A stretch of 24,185 bases of DNA from the IMG/VR virus record IMGVR_UViG_3300044237_001364, positions 1-24,185 of that record, one strand, 5' to 3'. Both the position numbers and the translations under genes were made by a program. Below are positions 6,504 through 22,466 of the stretch, piece after piece. Source of the DNA: a virus. Below the pieces are notes generated by a model, which ran no database searches, was not told where the DNA came from, and saw only the letters and a list, made by a program, of their open reading frames with translations. How positions within the stretch are numbered: the stretch's first letter is position 1; every line of letters begins with the position of its first letter.

Positions 6504-8018
6504 CTACAGGCTTACTTCTTCCAAGTCAAGCCAATTCTTACCTATTTTTAATTCAATTCCAACGGGCATGTCATACTCCACACCATACCTGTTCAAAGTC
6601 TCTTCAGGTAATGATTGCATAGCGTAAGACAACAGGTTGATACAGCCCTCTTTTTCATCAGGGTGTACGTCCAACACAATAGAATCGTGCACTGTGTTGC
6701 ATATTACAGACTTCATTTCTCTTGTCTTCATCATCCTGTTCAAACGAACGAGAGCAGCAGGTAATAGGTCTGCAGTGGCAAATCCCTGCACAGGGTAGTT
6801 ACAGATAGCAGTACGGTTCGTTGCCGTTCCCCACTCTGTCCACCTCACACCGGGGAACGCATACTGTCTACCACTAGGCAGGGTAATCATCTTCTCTCTA
6901 ACAGCCTCTTTCTGCAGTTCTTTATGCCATTCAGTAACGCCCTCATACTTATCCTTAAACGCTCTGTAATATCTTTGCTGCGATTCAGTTCCCGTGACAC
7001 CACCATATAGGGGCTTGAAAGTATGGGCTTTTGCTTCTTGGCGTGAGCATCCGATAACACTTGCAGTATAGCTATGAACATCTGTACCATCCTCTACATC
7101 TTTATATGCCTGACTGTCTTTTGCAAGAAATCCAGCCACCCTAAACTCTAATTGCGAGTAATCCCCCTCAAGTATAAGCCCATCCTTGAAACGGCTCTCG
7201 ACCACCTTCCGTATAGCGAAGGTATTTCCACGTGGCATATTTTGAAAGTTAGGATTGCGAGACGAAAGGCGACCCGTCGCCGTAATACACTGCATGAACT
7301 CTGGGTGGATGAAACTATCCTCGTCAACATTGTTTTTCATTCCCTCTACAAAGGTGTTCAAGTAAGTACGCAACGCACTGTATCTTGTGTATGCGGTTAC
7401 AAACTCTCGTGCGTCACCAGACAAATCAGTCAACCTGTTTTCCAACGTGGATCTGTCTGTCTTGAATCCAGCCGATGCTGTATCCATTGGATCACGAGGT
7501 ACAAGTTTGAACCCAGCAACCTCGCGGGTTGGCATATAGATCACCCCGGCACCCCCGCAGGGTTTACACACACGAAGTATCTTACTTGGTTTACCATTTT
7601 TATTGACAGGTCTGACCTTGCCAAAGCCAACACACCCGGCACACTGTGATCCACGTGTTTTATACACAACCTCTGTCATGTTCTTGACAGCAGACTTGAA
7701 CTCCCCACGCTTCATACGAGTACGCATCTTAGGCTTCATTGTGTTGCCCCGCATCTCATGCCCCAAATTAAAGACACGTCGTGAATAGAGCAACGTGCTC
7801 CTGTCATCAGGGCTAGACAAGTTTATGGGGGTATCCCCCACAGCATCACGTGCAAGCCGCTCTAGGTGAACCTCAAGCTCATCCATCTCCTGCTGATACT
7901 CTTGTCGTATCTGTTCTAGTGTGTCTAAGTTAATCTTTAAACCGTTCTGCTCCATACGAGCAAGAACGTCAGTCATCTCAAGCGACAACCTCAACGTTGG
8001 TAGTAAAATCCGATGCAT
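6504..8018 (-). CDS. DNA polymerase family A, polymerase subunit with DnaJ-like zinc finger insertion
   Basis: 504 residues. The polymerase core is complete: TGRLSSRNPNFQN (248-260), motif A with D286 (EGDYSQLEFR), O-helix motif B at K330-G339 (KAHTFKPLYG) and motif C H444-D445 (VHDSIVLD). There is no 3'-5' exonuclease domain; that is encoded by the overlapping upstream gene. An insertion in the thumb region holds two CxxCxGxG-like knuckles, C126/C129 (CAGCVGFG) and C151/C154 (CKPCGGAG), resembling half of a DnaJ central zinc domain. As I recall, this was reported for phage HMO-2011. Start at 8018 is supported by GAGG 9 bases upstream and by homology beginning soon after (EMTDVLARMEQNG). A start at 7976 would lose part of this helix. 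Confidence 0.93.
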   Translation of the reverse strand: MHRILLPTLRLSLEMTDVLARMEQNGLKINLDTLEQIRQEYQQEMDELEVHLERLARDAVGDTPINLSSPDDRSTLLYSRRVFNLGHEMRGNTMKPKMRTRMKRGEFKSAVKNMTEVVYKTRGSQCAGCVGFGKVRPVNKNGKPSKILRVCKPCGGAGVIYMPTREVAGFKLVPRDPMDTASAGFKTDRSTLENRLTDLSGDAREFVTAYTRYSALRTYLNTFVEGMKNNVDEDSFIHPEFMQCITATGRLSSRNPNFQNMPRGNTFAIRKVVESRFKDGLILEGDYSQLEFRVAGFLAKDSQAYKDVEDGTDVHSYTASVIGCSRQEAKAHTFKPLYGGVTGTESQQRYYRAFKDKYEGVTEWHKELQKEAVREKMITLPSGRQYAFPGVRWTEWGTATNRTAICNYPVQGFATADLLPAALVRLNRMMKTREMKSVICNTVHDSIVLDVHPDEKEGCINLLSYAMQSLPEETLNRYGVEYDMPVGIELKIGKNWLDLEEVSL

Positions 8019-8559
8019 TATATAGTTCCTCAAAGGTAGTGCCAAAGGCATCAAGCTGTTTAAGTGCAATCTCTTCAGTAGCAAGTACGTCAGCTATACC
8101 GTACTCTTCTACTATCTCCCACGGTATATCGTAGAAGGTCTTACCATCCTTGAGATACGGCGCGACAAGGTCTTTTTCCTTTTTGGTAACGTCATACTTT
8201 TCTGCAAGAGCAGCAAGTCCAAGAGGCCAACGTTGGGATTTGGAAAGAATGTATTCAGCCACCATCGTATCGTAGATCTCACCATCATAAACAAAACCAC
8301 ACTCCCGTATCCACGATAGATCAAACTTGATGTTTTGTCCCACAACAATGTCAGCACAGTCAAGTTCCTTTTGGAAAGTCTTGAAGGCGTTGACGTGAGG
8401 CTCTCTGTCTGCATGGTAGTAGCATTGATAGTGAACACTACACCCTAGCCACTTGTATCCAATAGAGACAAGACGATTACCAAAGTATGGTAAGGCAGTG
8501 GTGCTGCCATTTTCTTTCTCCACGTGGGTTGTTTCCACATCAAACGTTAGTATGTTCAT
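7978..8559 (-). CDS. DNA polymerase 3'-5' exonuclease subunit (split proofreading domain)
   Basis: 193 residues. The DEDD exonuclease motifs are all present: Exo I D7/E9 (TFDVETT), Exo II N76 and D80 (GQNIKFD), and Exo III Y153-x3-D157 (YGIAD). Proofreading during replication is the expected role, presumably in complex with the polymerase subunit encoded next. In T7 gp5 both domains are one protein; here the reading frame ends after residue 193 and overlaps the polymerase gene by 41 bases. The start at 8559 has GAGGG 7 bases upstream and overlaps the HNH gene by 20 bases. The separate ribosome-binding site for the polymerase argues for a real split rather than a sequencing frameshift. Confidence 0.92.
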   Translation of the reverse strand: MNILTFDVETTHVEKENGSTTALPYFGNRLVSIGYKWLGCSVHYQCYYHADREPHVNAFKTFQKELDCADIVVGQNIKFDLSWIRECGFVYDGEIYDTMVAEYILSKSQRWPLGLAALAEKYDVTKKEKDLVAPYLKDGKTFYDIPWEIVEEYGIADVLATEEIALKQLDAFGTTFEELYNASDFTTNVEVVA

Positions 8560-8932
8560 CTTCGTCCCTCTGATTCTTGCTGTGTATAGCATGACAGTTA
8601 GCACAAAGCACCCTGCATTTGCGAACTTCTGCTATCAACTTCTTTAGATTACCCTTTTTCATGTTTGATATATCCATAATTTTATCTGCTTTATTAAGGT
8701 GATCAAACTCTAAAGCAACAGGATGCTCTTTGTATCCACAAATTTCACACCCCTTACTCATCTTATACAGGTCAAGCCACCTGCCACGAATATCCCTAAG
8801 TTTCTTGTTTCTGTTACGTCTTTTGACCACAGATACACAAAAAGAGGATGGTTTACGCCAGTCTTCCTTACCTTTATGATAGCCCCAGAACATGCGACCA
8901 TCAGATTGTCTCAAGTCCCCACGCTTTGGCAT
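8540..8932 (-). CDS. HNH homing-type endonuclease
   Basis: 130 residues. The HNH/zinc core spans 61-119: C62-x2-C65, FDHLN with D77-H78, then C110-x2-C113-H114 (CRVLCANCH). The N-terminal about 30 residues (DGRMFWGYHK, then W25) are followed by a basic stretch at 36-52 likely to contact DNA. Free-standing HNH genes of this size often spread between phages as homing endonucleases and sit beside DNA polymerase or helicase genes, as here. Start and helicase stop overlap (TGATG) and its end overlaps the exonuclease start. It is therefore neatly fitted into the operon rather than disrupting it. Confidence 0.88.
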   Translation of the reverse strand: MPKRGDLRQSDGRMFWGYHKGKEDWRKPSSFCVSVVKRRNRNKKLRDIRGRWLDLYKMSKGCEICGYKEHPVALEFDHLNKADKIMDISNMKKGNLKKLIAEVRKCRVLCANCHAIHSKNQRDEDEHTNV

Positions 8933-13241: not shown

Positions 13242-13377
13242 ATCTTGGCAAAAGGTTAGACACTACTATCTCACGCATGATGGTATTGAGATGCTATTGT
13301 TTGTCTGTATCTTTGGATTCTTTGGCTGGATGGCCTACCATGCAGTAGTTGGAATTGTAGAGAGGGTGGTGGGATGA
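13234..13377 (+). CDS. Small single-helix membrane protein
   Basis: 47 residues from the ATG at 13234 (starts MNKSWQKVRHYYL), overlapping the previous stop by 8 bases, with one transmembrane helix at about 19-40 (EMLLFVCIFGFFGWMAYHAV). A longer frame from 13141 overlaps the previous gene extensively and is not favoured. GGGGAG lies very close to the ATG. The pairing with the two-helix protein upstream suggests they act together; inference. Confidence 0.5.
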   Translation: MNKSWQKVRHYYLTHDGIEMLLFVCIFGFFGWMAYHAVVGIVERVVG

Positions 13378-13595
13378 GTGATTTTGTCAGCCATAATTTT
13401 GTCAGCCATAATTTTGTCAGCCATAATTTTGTCAGCCATAATACTAAAACGACGTTGTCCCTCGATTATCCATGTGATGATTGTGGGGAGCCGTCGATGG
13501 TTTATGTGGGCAATTTGCTTTATTGTCCTAAATGTTATCTAAAAAAACAGGGTGCCAAAATAAAACCGCTTGACCATCGCGGGTTTTATCCGTAA
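13374..13595 (+). CDS. Zinc-ribbon mini-protein with FVSHN tandem repeats
   Basis: 73 residues. The N-terminus is four consecutive FVSHN pentapeptides (residues 4-23) encoded by a 15-base tandem repeat. The rest carries C34-x2-C37 (CDDCGEP) and C51-x2-C54 (CPKC), a zinc ribbon with GNLLY before the second knuckle. The start overlaps the previous stop (ATGA). The repeat may be a recent expansion, and the functional unit is probably the zinc ribbon. Function unknown; nucleic-acid or protein binding would be typical. Confidence 0.6.
   Translation: MSDFVSHNFVSHNFVSHNFVSHNTKTTLSLDYPCDDCGEPSMVYVGNLLYCPKCYLKKQGAKIKPLDHRGFYP
13381..13440 (+). repeat. Four perfect tandem copies of a 15-base unit
   Basis: The unit ATTTTGTCAGCCATA is repeated exactly four times with no spacers or mismatches. 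It is in frame with the zinc-ribbon gene. The core TTTGTCAGC recurs outside genes at 14551-14582 and 16898-16911. Confidence 0.97.
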
Positions 13596-17438: not shown

Positions 17439-17711
17439 ATGTTTGAGTCTTGGATACTTGTTTGTTTAGCCGTTGGACCCGATCTATGTCGTGAAATAAA
17501 AGACACAGAAGGCCCATATCGCACAGAAAAAGAATGCATGCTCCGAAATGACGAAATGGCAACGTTCGTTTACGAACGACAGGTCTTTGAAGTCAATATA
17601 AAAAGCCGATGCAAGGTTGTTTTAGAAAAAAACGATGAATCTACTCCCCCAAACACACAAAAAGAAGGAATTGAGTCCTCAACAGGAACAATTCTTGGAA
17701 CTTCTATTTGA
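17439..17711 (+). CDS. Unknown small cysteine-containing protein, possibly membrane-anchored or exported
   Basis: 90 residues. The short hydrophobic start (MFESWILVCLAVGPDLC) could be a signal or anchor segment, followed by spaced cysteines C17, C33 and C58 (DLCREIK, KECMLRN, SRCKVV) with GPYRTEKEC. Small proteins with this GPY...C layout are common in marine phages, function unknown. The C-terminal 20 residues are low complexity and overlap the start of terS by 77 bases. AAGGA lies 10 bases before the ATG. First gene of the packaging operon. Confidence 0.65.
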   Translation: MFESWILVCLAVGPDLCREIKDTEGPYRTEKECMLRNDEMATFVYERQVFEVNIKSRCKVVLEKNDESTPPNTQKEGIESSTGTILGTSI

Positions 17712-18039
17712 AAACGGTGGTCAGGTAACTGCTGCTGCCGTAGATGCAGGGTATTCACGTGGATCAGCCGCTTGGTTGAAGTCCACCCTTGCTGATGAGA
17801 TAGTTGAACGAACCAAAACCATCCTAGCTACCAACGCAATGAAGGCAGCTAATCGTGTTATTTCAACTATAGACAACCCCGCCCCCGAAAGAGGTGATGA
17901 TCTTCGCCTCAAAGCCGCTGAATCGCTCCTCAACCGCGTAGGGGTGGCAAAGCAGGAACAAATCAACCACAACGTACAGGCAATACACGGTGTAGTCCTG
18001 TTGCCGCCTAAGAAAGAGGTCGTGATCGATGGCTCTTAA
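17635..18039 (+). CDS. terS: Terminase small subunit
   Basis: 134 residues. Recognises phage DNA for packaging and hands it to the large subunit. The N-terminal HTH (VTAAAVDAGYSRGSAAWLKS, residues 31-50) matches terminase small subunits, as does the helical RLKAAESLLNRVGV segment (about 90-103) and the C-terminal tail VVLLPPKKEVVIDGS. Position two genes before terL supports this. The start overlaps the previous gene, and its Shine-Dalgarno is poor. The coding sequence for its last ten residues is duplicated at 18516-18548, as described for the repeats there. Confidence 0.85.
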   Translation: MNLLPQTHKKKELSPQQEQFLELLFENGGQVTAAAVDAGYSRGSAAWLKSTLADEIVERTKTILATNAMKAANRVISTIDNPAPERGDDLRLKAAESLLNRVGVAKQEQINHNVQAIHGVVLLPPKKEVVIDGS

Positions 18040-18499
18040 TAGTAAGGAAAAAGAAGCAGTAGCTTACGCCGCAACCTTAGTTGGTGGAGCGGCAGCGATA
18101 CTTGGCAGTGAAGCTGCTAGTGAAAGACGAAAGAACAAGCGTCACAGAAAACTACAAGAAAAGAGTCGTGAACGTGTTCAAGCCCGCAGAGAAAAAACTT
18201 CTCAAGGAAGAAACCAAGCTAGAAAAGCTGCTGCAGAAACACGCCTGACACAATTACAAAGAATCAGACCATCTGATCTTAGTAAAGAAAACCGTAAAGT
18301 ACGAACTGCCTACATACAAGAACAAAAGAACATACTAAAAGACTTGAAGCCGAAGACAGCCACAAGCATAGCAAAAAGTATCGGCTTGAAGGCTATACCC
18401 GGATTAACTGCGTTCCTAACTGCATTTAGCAGCAGCCCTGCATATCAGCAAGGTGGAAGGGTTCATCGTGGCAGAAAAGCAGACGGCTCAAAAGCCTAA
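18029..18499 (+). CDS. Unknown basic protein in the first terS-terL slot
   Basis: 156 residues. A hydrophobic Ala/Gly-rich N-terminal segment (AATLVGGAAAILGSEAA, 14-30) is followed by a long very basic helix (about 32-70, RRKNKRHRKLQEKSRERVQ in part). Near the C-terminus is another Ala/Leu-rich segment (IPGLTAFLTAFSSSPAY). The final HRGRKADGSKA is encoded by DNA that in another frame is a copy of the terL start. The ATG overlaps the terS end and uses AGAGGT within terS. Function unknown; packaging or head-related by position. Confidence 0.65.
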   Translation: MALNSKEKEAVAYAATLVGGAAAILGSEAASERRKNKRHRKLQEKSRERVQARREKTSQGRNQARKAAAETRLTQLQRIRPSDLSKENRKVRTAYIQEQKNILKDLKPKTATSIAKSIGLKAIPGLTAFLTAFSSSPAYQQGGRVHRGRKADGSKA

Positions 18500-18522
18500 A
18501 CGAACCTACCAACTGTCCACCG
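18464..18522 (+). repeat. Direct repeat copy A of the terL start region
   Basis: Aligns with 18818-18882 at all but three positions over 59 bases, apart from one 6-base gap. Includes the GTG start and codons for AEKQT and KRTYQLST. It ends at CCACCG, where the match to terL stops and a match to the end of terS begins. Confidence 0.95.
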
Positions 18523-18542
18523 AAAAAAGAAGTAATAATTGA
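18468..18542 (+). pseudogene. Relic: start of terL fused to the end of terS
   Basis: From the GTG at 18468 the frame reads VAEKQTAQKPKRTYQLST, the terL N-terminus, then switches to EKRSNN and stops. In another frame the bases 18516-18548 read PPKKEVIIDG-stop, a second version of the terS tail PPKKEVVIDGS. The join occurs at CCACCG, shared by both genes. The fused frame is 24 codons and unlikely to be functional. Confidence 0.85.
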
Positions 18543-18859
18543 TGGCTAAACGTCCTGAATGGCTAACACGGGCTATGGACCCTTCTACACCAACAACCTA
18601 CGCAAATGAAACAATGCGTACTATCGACTTTGAAGCAGACGGTGTAACTTACATTGCCCCGACTATAAGAAGATCACAAGAAGGGCTGGAACGTCTGTCA
18701 AATGAAGAAGCAATAAAAGAAGCTGTTCGAAGAGGAGATGCTATTCCTGTACCAGAAGGAATGACTGGAACAGAGTTTTCAAAACACCTTAGTGATATGG
18801 TAAATCAAGCAAGGAAGCATCGTGGCAGAAAAGCAAACGGTTCAGCCGAAAAAGACTAA
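18542..18859 (+). CDS. Unknown protein in the second terS-terL slot
   Basis: 105 residues from the ATG at 18542 (MAKRPEWLTRAMDPSTP); a TTG three bases earlier is less likely. Contains FEADGVTYIAPTIR and an acidic/basic helical section (LSNEEAIKEAVRRGD), then PVPEGMTGTEF. The C-terminus HRGRKANGSAEKD overlaps the terL start in another frame, as in the gene before it. Apart from this tail the two slot genes show no similarity to each other. Its ribosome-binding context is the relic terS tail (AAAGAAGT), weaker than the original AAAGAGGT. Function unknown. Confidence 0.65.
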   Translation: MAKRPEWLTRAMDPSTPTTYANETMRTIDFEADGVTYIAPTIRRSQEGLERLSNEEAIKEAVRRGDAIPVPEGMTGTEFSKHLSDMVNQARKHRGRKANGSAEKD

Positions 18860-18882
18860 ACGAACCTACCAACTGTCCACCG
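18818..18882 (+). repeat. Direct repeat copy B of the terL start region (functional copy)
   Basis: 65 bases spanning the GTG start and first codons of the intact terL. Differs from copy A by three substitutions and a 6-base insertion (GCCGAA). The divergence indicates the duplication is not a sequencing or assembly artefact of identical repeats. Confidence 0.95.
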
Positions 18883-20492
18883 CTGAACGTGCCCGTCGTG
18901 GGGCACAGAAACGTTTGAGGACAGCAAAGAAAAAAGCTACACAAGCTACAAAAAAAGCAGAAGCACAAAGAACCTATGCCCGAAATCTGGAAAAGACGAT
19001 TGGAAGAGTCGAGAAGGGAGTTACTGGAAGCGGAACGAATGTCATCGATGAGGGAGATCTCGCCGTTTTACCCCCATCCGTTTCCGACCTTGTTGGCGAT
19101 TCTGAAGTTGTTTTCCAAGCTAACCCCGGACCTCAAGAAGAGTTTCTTTCGGCAGGTGAGCGAGATGTCCTATATGGGGGAGCGGCTGGCGGTGGCAAGT
19201 CATTTGCTTTACTTGCTGATCCCTTACGCTATTGCCATAATTCCAATCATAGGGGTCTTCTCCTAAGACGCACCCTAGACGAACTAACCGAACTTATAGA
19301 CAAGTCACGACAACTGTACCCCAAAGCATTTCCCGGTGCAAAGTTTCGTGAATCAAAATCCACATGGGTGTTTCCGTCAGGTGCCACCATGTGGTTTACT
19401 TACCTAGACAGAGACAAAGACGTTACCCGTTTTCAAGGGCAAGCTTTTAACTGGATAGGCATAGATGAAATAACACAATATCCAACACCCTACGTCTGGG
19501 ACTACCTACGCTCCAGACTACGTGCCACAGATCCCGAATTACAAAACAGTCTATATATGCGTTGTACAGCCAACCCCGGCGGTGTAGGTGGCTGGTGGGT
19601 TAAGAAGATGTACATCGATGTGCAAAAGGACAACTCTCCTTTTCCTGCATATGACATAGATACAATGAAGCCTTTTGTATGGCCTGACGGTCACGGTAAG
19701 GCAGGTCAACCGTTGTTCTACCGCAAGTTCGTTCCTGCACGGTTGACTGATAATCCCCACCTCATGGCTGACGGACAATACGAAGCCATGTTGCGTTCGC
19801 TCCCAGAAGTTGAGCGGAAGAGACTTCTTGACGGGGATTGGGATGTGGCAGAGGGAGCAGCCTTCCCAGAGTTTTCACGAGAGCGTCATGTGGTCGAACA
19901 TTTTGAGCTTCCCACCAACTGGCCCCGCATACGTGCCGCCGACTATGGTTACGCGAGTCCGTCGTGCGTTCTGTGGGGGGCTATTGACTGGGATAACAAT
20001 ATCTGGGTTTATCGTGAGCTTTATGCAAAACACTTGACAGCGGAAGATTTAGCCGCTAAAATACTAGAAGCGGAACAACTTGACCCGCTACCTCACTATA
20101 CTGTATTGGATTCTTCCTGCTGGAACAAGACGGGCATGGGTCCGTCCATAGCAGAAACCATGATGCGATCCGGTGTTAGGTGGACACCATCTGATCGTAA
20201 TCGCATTCAAGGTAAGATGGAAGTGCACCGTCGTTTAGGGGATGATCCTTATACAAATGAACCACGTCTTCGTGTATTTTCTTCCTGCCAGCATATCATC
20301 AAGCAACTTGCGGGGATACCTCTCTCTAAAACCAATAGTGAGGATGTGGACACAAAAGCAGAAGATCACGCTTACGATGCATTGCGATATATGGTGATGA
20401 CACGCATGAGCGGATACGCTGCAATACACCAGCAACTAGGTGCAATCAAGAACCACGTACATAAAGTACAAGACGAAGTATTCGGATACTAG
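18822..20492 (+). CDS. terL: Terminase large subunit (packaging ATPase and nuclease)
   Basis: 556 residues from a GTG start. ATPase: Walker A GGAAGGGKS (119-127, K126), Walker B WIGIDE (211-216), and a TANPGG coupling segment (249-254). Nuclease: D374 (AADYGYAS), D430 (TVLDSS) and D515/D519 (EDHAYDALR) in a RNase H-like domain. It pumps DNA into the prohead and cuts it. The first about 95 residues are a very basic extension (KRLRTAKKKATQATKK, then YARNLEKTI) before the usual start FQANPGPQEEFL. The start overlaps the preceding gene by 38 bases, and the GTG start is preserved in the relic copy, which supports it. Confidence 0.96.
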   Translation: MAEKQTVQPKKTKRTYQLSTAERARRGAQKRLRTAKKKATQATKKAEAQRTYARNLEKTIGRVEKGVTGSGTNVIDEGDLAVLPPSVSDLVGDSEVVFQANPGPQEEFLSAGERDVLYGGAAGGGKSFALLADPLRYCHNSNHRGLLLRRTLDELTELIDKSRQLYPKAFPGAKFRESKSTWVFPSGATMWFTYLDRDKDVTRFQGQAFNWIGIDEITQYPTPYVWDYLRSRLRATDPELQNSLYMRCTANPGGVGGWWVKKMYIDVQKDNSPFPAYDIDTMKPFVWPDGHGKAGQPLFYRKFVPARLTDNPHLMADGQYEAMLRSLPEVERKRLLDGDWDVAEGAAFPEFSRERHVVEHFELPTNWPRIRAADYGYASPSCVLWGAIDWDNNIWVYRELYAKHLTAEDLAAKILEAEQLDPLPHYTVLDSSCWNKTGMGPSIAETMMRSGVRWTPSDRNRIQGKMEVHRRLGDDPYTNEPRLRVFSSCQHIIKQLAGIPLSKTNSEDVDTKAEDHAYDALRYMVMTRMSGYAAIHQQLGAIKNHVHKVQDEVFGY

Positions 20493-22466
20493 ATGGAAAC
20501 GGCAGAATTTAAAGCATTAGCTGAATCTGGTAACTTGACTATAGGTCAAGCTATAGATCACGCCATGACTATGCCAAAAGCTGGTAGTCGCATAGAAGAT
20601 TTAAAGACAGCCATCTCTGCAGGAAAACTAGGAGAAACTACTTTAGATACTCCTTTAGTTGAAGCATTCAAAAGCGAAAGTTTTCTTACAAATGTAGACA
20701 CACCAAGAGCTAATTACTATGTGAGCGTACAAGGACTTGAAAATTCCTTAAAAACAGCATTTGTACGGGCAAAACTTCCATATTTATCTACGTTGGGTCT
20801 TGAAACAGAGTTAGCAGGTGCTAAAGGGCTACTGCAAACAGGCGGGTATTCAGAGGGCCAACTTAGACGCACTCGACAAATGGAGGGTTTGATTCCCTCT
20901 GCAGATTTAGACAAAGCTTACGCTGATGCTTTTACAAATATGGAAGACAACGTATCTAACGATACTAAAAGGTTTCTATTTTTCCATAAAAACACTGTGG
21001 CTCGTGTAGAAACAATTTTAGGAGCACCTGCTACTAAAAAAACACCTGCAAAGCCACCAATGACCCTTGCTGATGTTATCATAAGCTCAGATCCTGATAG
21101 CGGGGAACCAACAGTTACATTAAAAGGTGAAACGAGAGTAAACAAAACTAGGTTGGCTGTTACTTATAAGGGCACTATGGCAGCCTTTTTAAAAGAACAG
21201 TTTGATGTGGCAAAAGCACGAGGTGGAGACAAAGCTCTAAAAGATATTAAGCTGTTTGATACTACAAAAGCGAAGACAGATGCTGCTCACAATAAATATA
21301 TTAAACCGATTGTGGAAGAAAGATTTCCAACTCAAATACCTATCGATCCTAAAACTGGAAAATCTGGATGGCGACCAACAGATATACGGTCAGCAGTTCA
21401 GGACCAACTAGAAAAAGAATTTAGAATAGACCGTGTTTTAGCAGAGGATTATGCAGGACATAAAGTAAAAGATGCGTATAAGTCTGCTGGTGCGAATCCA
21501 GAGACTATTGGTGAAATATCTGAAAACTTAGTAAGACAAAGCGCAAAAAATTTAGGAATAAGTACAACCAACAGTTTAATTACAACCAGTTTTAACATAC
21601 AGTCTCCTGCGTTATCCACACAAAACGCCCCTGCATTTCCTGCTTTGACAGATAACTATAGAGGCGCAGGACAAACTCTACAACCTTCCAAACCTCTTAC
21701 AGAACTTGATGTAAAAGAAATAGAAAGTGCACAGCGTGTTAACATAGCACAGCTAGAACAACAGGCATTAGACTTACAAAAAGCTAACATAGAAAAAGGG
21801 GCAGCACTGGATGTTGATCAAGCAAGGACTGCTGCTGAAAGACAAAGTCAACTTGCAGATATAAAAGCTCAAGTTAAAGATGAAAAAACTGCAGACGCTG
21901 GAAATGAATTACGTAAAAAGATACGTAACAGATTTACAACTCTTGGTCTAGCAACTGCAGGAGTTTTGGGAGCAACTCCCGGCCCGGTAGGAGACTTAAT
22001 TGGTTTAGGTATCGAATCTGCACTTGCTGATAAAACAGATGGACCAGACAGATTTGATGTAGCAGAAGAAAGAGGACGACAGGGTTTTGCAGAGCTATTT
22101 GGTATGGAAAGAGAACCCGGAGAAAAGAGTTTAGCAACATCCCCCGGTGCGCTAGTAGGCACAGCAGCAGAGCTATTTGGAGTCGGACTACCGCCAAAAG
22201 TTCCAACAGACATAGCTCGTATGAGAGCGACACAACCTGATGCTCCCGCTGCCGCTCCACCTGCAGTCCCATCACTCGCACCCCCTGTACCATCTTTACA
22301 GCCAAATACAACTAACCTGCCAAAAATACAGATTACAGAAAGTAAACCTTTTCAAAGAAGTCAGGGTATGCTCTCAGCAGAGGGAGCAAAAGACAGAGTT
22401 AACCAAGCAAGAAGTGCCGCACTTGCTGGTGAAGAAACAACACTTCGCGGCTCGTTTTTAAACTAA
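20493..22466 (+). CDS. Large unknown protein between terL and portal
   Basis: 657 residues, beginning directly after the terL stop. Mostly helical, Ala/Lys/Glu-rich. Residues about 410-460 are strongly helical with heptad-like hydrophobics (ELDVKEIESAQRVNIAQLEQ, then ALDLQKANIEKG). A hydrophobic Gly/Ala segment lies at about 487-510 (LATAGVLGATPGPVG), and the C-terminus is Pro-rich (PAVPSLAPPVPSLQP). No cysteines and no enzymatic motif that I can name. It could be an internal or ejection protein, or a head assembly component; this is a guess from position and composition. Shine-Dalgarno weak, so translation may be coupled to terL. Confidence 0.75.
   Translation: METAEFKALAESGNLTIGQAIDHAMTMPKAGSRIEDLKTAISAGKLGETTLDTPLVEAFKSESFLTNVDTPRANYYVSVQGLENSLKTAFVRAKLPYLSTLGLETELAGAKGLLQTGGYSEGQLRRTRQMEGLIPSADLDKAYADAFTNMEDNVSNDTKRFLFFHKNTVARVETILGAPATKKTPAKPPMTLADVIISSDPDSGEPTVTLKGETRVNKTRLAVTYKGTMAAFLKEQFDVAKARGGDKALKDIKLFDTTKAKTDAAHNKYIKPIVEERFPTQIPIDPKTGKSGWRPTDIRSAVQDQLEKEFRIDRVLAEDYAGHKVKDAYKSAGANPETIGEISENLVRQSAKNLGISTTNSLITTSFNIQSPALSTQNAPAFPALTDNYRGAGQTLQPSKPLTELDVKEIESAQRVNIAQLEQQALDLQKANIEKGAALDVDQARTAAERQSQLADIKAQVKDEKTADAGNELRKKIRNRFTTLGLATAGVLGATPGPVGDLIGLGIESALADKTDGPDRFDVAEERGRQGFAELFGMEREPGEKSLATSPGALVGTAAELFGVGLPPKVPTDIARMRATQPDAPAAAPPAVPSLAPPVPSLQPNTTNLPKIQITESKPFQRSQGMLSAEGAKDRVNQARSAALAGEETTLRGSFLN

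Follow-up and report, generated by a model that had tools for sequence, protein, structure and literature searches.

Between the small and large terminase subunit genes (terS and terL) of the phage studied here lie two small genes, A and B, and between A and B lies a sequence that reads like the beginning of terL fused to the end of terS. This locus raises the question of how such an arrangement came about and what role small genes ending in nearly the same peptide might have in this place. The window, that is, the whole stretch of DNA analysed here, is an IMG/VR virus record of 24,185 bases. On the left, the interval is bordered by a terS-like small terminase gene (17635–18039, plus strand, 134 aa; phrog_51, terminase small subunit, E-value 6e-6), for which the score of Pfam Terminase_2 is under its cut-off, and on the right by terL (18822–20492, plus strand, 556 aa; phrog_979, E-value 4e-58, and Pfam Terminase_6N), which starts with the GTG codon at 18822. 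The best phage matches of the window TerL are CRP, HTVC and HMO-2011 phages, with about 50–57% identity to Roseobacter phages CRP-2 and CRP-603, Pelagibacter phage HTVC115P, and Puniceispirillum phage HMO-2011. With this related TerL, and with terS and the portal (families SU10_portal and phrog_1216) encoded nearby, the window phage is, by sequence, a member of the HMO-2011-type group of marine phages. The P22-like coat protein PF11651, which is annotated in HMO-2011, was not found in nine relatives in a search with a working positive control; this result covers the relatives alone, and no coat gene was recognised in the window.

The terS gene ends with PPKKEVVIDGS (18004–18039, plus strand), a stretch that holds the ATG of gene A at 18029. 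Gene A (18029–18499, plus strand, 156 aa; family F6) and gene B (18542–18859, plus strand, 105 aa; family F1) were delineated as open reading frames and by comparison with relatives. The initial annotation claimed that the terL start has an earlier, diverged copy that runs on from CCACCG as a second terS end, and alignment confirmed both statements. The upstream copy (18464–18522, plus strand), which forms the left half of the scar, is identical to 18818–18882 in 56 of 59 positions with one 6-nt gap: 18464–18489 matches 18818–18843 in 24 of 26 positions, 18490–18522 matches 18850–18882 in 32 of 33, and 18844–18849 is missing from the upstream copy. At CCACCG (18517–18522, plus strand), a 6-bp microhomology that is also found in terL (18877–18882) and in the terS alleles of relatives, the copy departs from terL and then reads CCACCGAAAAAAGAAGTAATAATTGATGGCTAA (18517–18549, plus strand), which encodes PPKKEVIIDG followed by a stop codon, that is, a second, diverged terS 3' end that forms the right half of the scar. 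The two terS ends share 22 of 30 nucleotides and 9 of 10 residues, with nearly all differences at third codon positions, as would be expected of two coding alleles. When matched without gaps, the two pairs of repeats are identical in 39 of 59 and 23 of 35 positions (maxima in shuffled sequences, 32 and 19, respectively).

The terS alleles of three relatives (L047, L138 and L046) contain the required GCCACCGAAAAAAGAGGT, which makes the proposed joint at CCACCG plausible. Together with the scar itself, these alleles support the earlier proposal that recombination joined two slots carrying different genes end to end. Simple tandem duplication within one phage was rejected, given that A and B are unrelated and that the second terS end is a different allele. 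The contig is metagenomic, and an assembler, too, could join two related phages at a short microhomology, but such a chimera is extremely improbable because the whole interval from A through the scar to B is present, identical, in three more IMG/VR contigs that come from other data sets (3300044228_000788, 3300044219_002777 and 3300044303_000211); moreover, the reading frames are intact, and the start of B keeps a UGAUG overlap. An assembly artefact is thus largely refuted for this interval. What is left of the terL/terS fusion is an open reading frame of 24 codons (18468–18542, plus strand, starting with GTG at 18468), the TGA of which (18540–18542) overlaps the ATG of gene B (18542–18544) to form UGAUG, so that B may still be translationally coupled across the joint. 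A and B are also neighbours in L199 and the L023/L126 group, where the linkers differ, and therefore the scar in the window need not be the sole or the original event that brought these genes together.

The comparison with relatives was based on 80 terL loci along with loci gathered through B, A and the C-terminal tail described below, and comprised 106 distinct intervals after identical ones were dropped (one of these, a composite of 14 loci in which terS is incomplete, was left out of the slot analysis). These intervals contain 53 different gene arrays, some of which rest on single contigs, and 155 slot genes in 34 families, or 27 after merging at the profile level; gene calling was mechanical, and families may be split or merged. 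By automatic calling, the 89 slots with full TerL comprise 14 empty ones, 34 with one gene, 30 with two, 7 with three and 4 with four, and the L194 slot, read by eye, holds five. Among the phage pairs with TerL sequences from 98% to under 100% identical, only 11 of 47 have the same array. Phages with a single one of the two genes, sought as a check on the initial annotation, do exist: B alone is present in L025, L111, L128, L129 and L132, and A alone in L156. L126, which carries both A and B, differs from L156 by one gene, cleanly and exactly at the terL start codon, with nearly identical flanks and with the first dozen terL codons replaced. Thus, the terS–terL interval is indeed a variable cargo slot, and a hypervariable one, in which the small and for the most part unrelated genes number from none to four, or five in one contig. 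No slot family was found inside larger proteins of these loci, and a description of the slot or the tail was not found in openly licensed papers. In the empty slots (L044, L067, L040 and others), terL follows the terS end immediately, and the first residues of TerL form an AT-hook-like stretch, for example RRGRPKKDPNAPK or MAGRPKKDPNAPK.

Gene A is predicted to encode a long basic helix with a flexible C-terminus (a low-confidence model, with mean pLDDT 68, and below 50 for the tail), and gene B, a small strand-helix domain followed by a flexible tail (mean pLDDT 84, pTM 0.71). For B, structure comparison yielded matches, weak by E-value, to parts of large phage proteins, including a 1219-residue transglycosylase-domain protein and a 1232-residue polyvalent protein, and no match in a PDB fold search. 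BLAST searches of annotated phages with A or B produced no match; neither protein had a convincing match in Pfam, PHROG or NCBIfam, and none was found in Pfam or PHROG for representatives of ten other families.

What most slot proteins have in common is the C-terminus. The strict pattern [RK]GRxA, most commonly in the form GGKxCRGRKA, ends 141 of the 155 slot proteins, in about 27 families, compared with 15 of 3028 open reading frames in 12 phage records, the slot genes of those records counted in. In the window, the tails are GGRVHRGRKADGSKA in A (18452–18496, plus strand) and HRGRKANGSAEKD in B (18818–18856, plus strand), the latter overlapping the terL start in another frame. In HMO-2011, CRP-2 and HTVC115P, as in the window phage, the terS–terL interval holds one or two small genes, but those of the three isolates lack the tail, which was not seen anywhere in the scanned parts of CRP-2 and HMO-2011 (about 50 of 54–55 kb) or HTVC115P (7 kb). 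The copies of A in L023, L126 and L156 also lack the tail, which can thus be dispensed with.

In the initial annotation, the ends HRGRKADG and HRGRKANG had been taken for by-products of the overlap with terL. This interpretation did not survive the codon and position evidence: inner slot genes, far from terL and free of the overlap, bear the tail; many last slot genes stop ahead of the terL start; and the tail codons vary synonymously. The third arginine and the alanine are invariant in all 143 recognised tails, and the codons of this arginine agree between families in a fraction of 0.24 of comparisons, against 0.23 expected from codon use. Most other tail positions have a moderate excess of codons shared between families, so that some exchange of tail DNA by recombination contributes as well. 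In IMG/VR, searched with a degenerate DNA pattern for GGK[AV][CHYR]RGRKA, all 67 matching viral contigs have the match at the C-terminus, 12–20 residues from the stop codon; in 61 of these, terS or terL of this group contains or adjoins the match, and the other 6 have it in other phages near a lysozyme gene or a coat-like gene. The same pattern had 11 matches in bacterial genomes, none of them at a gene end. These observations show conservation of the tail at the protein level. In other phages, the tail was observed on further small late genes close to the lysozyme or coat-like gene (L157:3629–4422, L184:2160–2926, L160:6573–6830, L170:3316–3861, L201:6120–6392 and L221:813–1358, in coordinates of the strand that carries the tail), in two cases on a pair of adjacent genes. 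Derivation of the tail from a scaffold C-terminus was considered and rejected: the L194 gene upstream of the coat-like gene ends without RGRxA, as judged by eye.

A more general form of the by-product idea is that the tail is a DNA-level footprint, which encodes the signals for starting translation of terL or the following gene (ribosome-binding site and start codon) and also acts as a recombination anchor, the peptide being incidental. The residues that follow RGRxA depend on the position in the array, SAEK in last genes and NYKA or GNKD in most inner ones; ends such as SAEK, NKD and NYKA contain AAGG or GGAG-like sites, and this stretch looks like the ribosome-binding site of the next gene. 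Furthermore, in some last genes the RG codons, CGTGG, contain the GTG start of terL, and some tail DNA is identical across unrelated families. We nevertheless regard the footprint explanation as quite improbable: inner genes retain RGRxA where no start codon overlaps it, the third arginine and the alanine do not vary although the arginine codon is effectively random, and in other phages, genes located outside the slot end in the tail as well.

Alternatively, the tail could be a DNA-binding arm, similar to an AT-hook with its RGR core, and the slot proteins could act with terminase in packaging. The location of the slot between terS and terL is compatible with this possibility, as are the occurrence of RGRP and RGRK forms, the AT-hook-like start of TerL itself in empty slots, and the pI above 9 of half of the family cores. 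Against it, the canonical RGRP core with flanking basic residues is not the rule, the residue after RGR being K in 86 of the 143 tails, S in 28, P in 14 and Q in 11; several cores are acidic (F17, F23 and F32); and slots can be empty, which argues against an essential role in packaging. On balance, this interpretation appears unlikely.

By their position between terS and terL, the slot genes are expected to be expressed late, together with packaging. Small, diverse, dispensable late proteins that share one terminal peptide, predicted to be flexible on both A and B, seem to be best explained if this peptide is a docking tag that attaches otherwise unrelated proteins to one conserved phage component. 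Such docking would most likely serve loading into the virion and delivery with the DNA, and the fast turnover of the slot might then be driven by host defences. A tentative extension, which we hold to be possible rather than probable, is that [RK]GRxA is a C-terminal virion-loading code, such that any small protein fused to it would be carried in the particle and delivered; with the same reservation, the open row of genes in the packaging operon could be conceived of as a bay for exchangeable payloads, enlarged by recombination between slots. If the tail does load virions, the slot would directly list proteins that abundant ocean phages inject, most of them without a known function and some of them possibly inhibitors of host defence. 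The system also offers a simple test for a shared targeting peptide.

The obvious precedent is provided by the T4 internal proteins (Ip1/IPI, Ip2 and Ip3), which are packaged in the head, are injected and act against host nucleases (PMC3012670, PMC12373910). Like the slot proteins, these are diverse small proteins from variable loci that have only a short terminal signal in common, and the slot genes are evidently non-essential and highly diverse, as indicated by the empty slots and the 53 arrays. The T4 capsid targeting sequence, however, is N-terminal and is removed by proteolysis, whereas the slot peptide is C-terminal, the N-termini differ between slot families, and the slot proteins are no more than candidates for loading into the virion. 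Prohead proteases of the families PF03420 (S77) and PF04586 were not found in nine records, several of which are fragments (the PF03420 search was run without a positive control). By analogy, the slot proteins possibly work like the T4 internal proteins but are no members of that kind.

Joining of slots is not confined to the window. In L194 (on a contig shared with L113), the tail of one gene is cut after GGKACR, and terS sequence takes over at TCGC. Further on, the opening codons of an F4 gene (MEFFGNIYQSA) are fused to another terS end, of a different allele; both scars come from a single contig. Short stretches resembling the terS end, GTAGAGGTAGTTATCGATGG and GTGGGGTAGTTATCGATGG, precede the two inner genes of L199. 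In L166/L203 and L215, a tail of the type typical of last genes (SAEK and onward) runs directly into a terS-like end. By a position-specific score for the terS end, the scar starts in these loci rank above 98% of 336 control starts, except that of the two starts in L194, one with additional bases ahead of the ATG scores low. These scars show that end-to-end joining recurs; most other inner starts are ordinary by this score and most inner junctions have no scar, so that joining frequently goes without a trace.

The overall picture that we favour, and consider reasonably probable, is that of a slot for gene cassettes in which the tail is under selection and slots become joined to one another. 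Each unit would consist of a ribosome-binding and start region derived from or resembling the terS end, a small gene, the [RK]GRxA tail and the next start site, and recombination at the terS end, at start codons and at the terL start would add, remove or exchange such units. End-to-end joining of two slots would retain both genes and leave a scar, in which the tail of the last gene or the terL start is fused to a terS end; the window provides a fresh example of this process. Illegitimate or homeologous recombination in phage mosaicism (PMC2327257) likewise involves joints at a few matching bases between diverged relatives; compared with that general account, the joints here recur at one slot, add genes in tandem and leave readable scars. 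The hotspots of P2 and P4 (PMC9122126) are fixed spots in the phage genome with fast-changing antiviral genes, resembling this slot in the fixed site and the rapid change of accessory genes; those hotspots carry antiviral systems, whereas the slot holds a tandem row with one C-terminal tail, in which no known domain was found. The slot can accordingly be read as a stepwise record of the collection of accessory genes by phages.

Several other features of the window were observed. Between terL and the portal gene, at 20493–22466, there is a 657-aa open reading frame with no Pfam, PHROG or convincing NCBIfam match; in L194, the same position is occupied by a different-looking open reading frame of 605 aa, and hence this interval may be a second variable site. 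The PolA-type DNA polymerase (6504–8604, minus strand) is split into two overlapping open reading frames that are out of frame with each other, one for a 208-aa exonuclease-like part and the other for a 526-aa polymerase part. The split and the frame change are also present in the relatives L086, L090, L093 and L102, but HMO-2011 and CRP-2 encode the two parts in a single frame; the window gene would correspond either to two proteins or to one produced by programmed frameshifting. Finally, a small open reading frame at 13374–13595 opens with four tandem FVSHN repeats.
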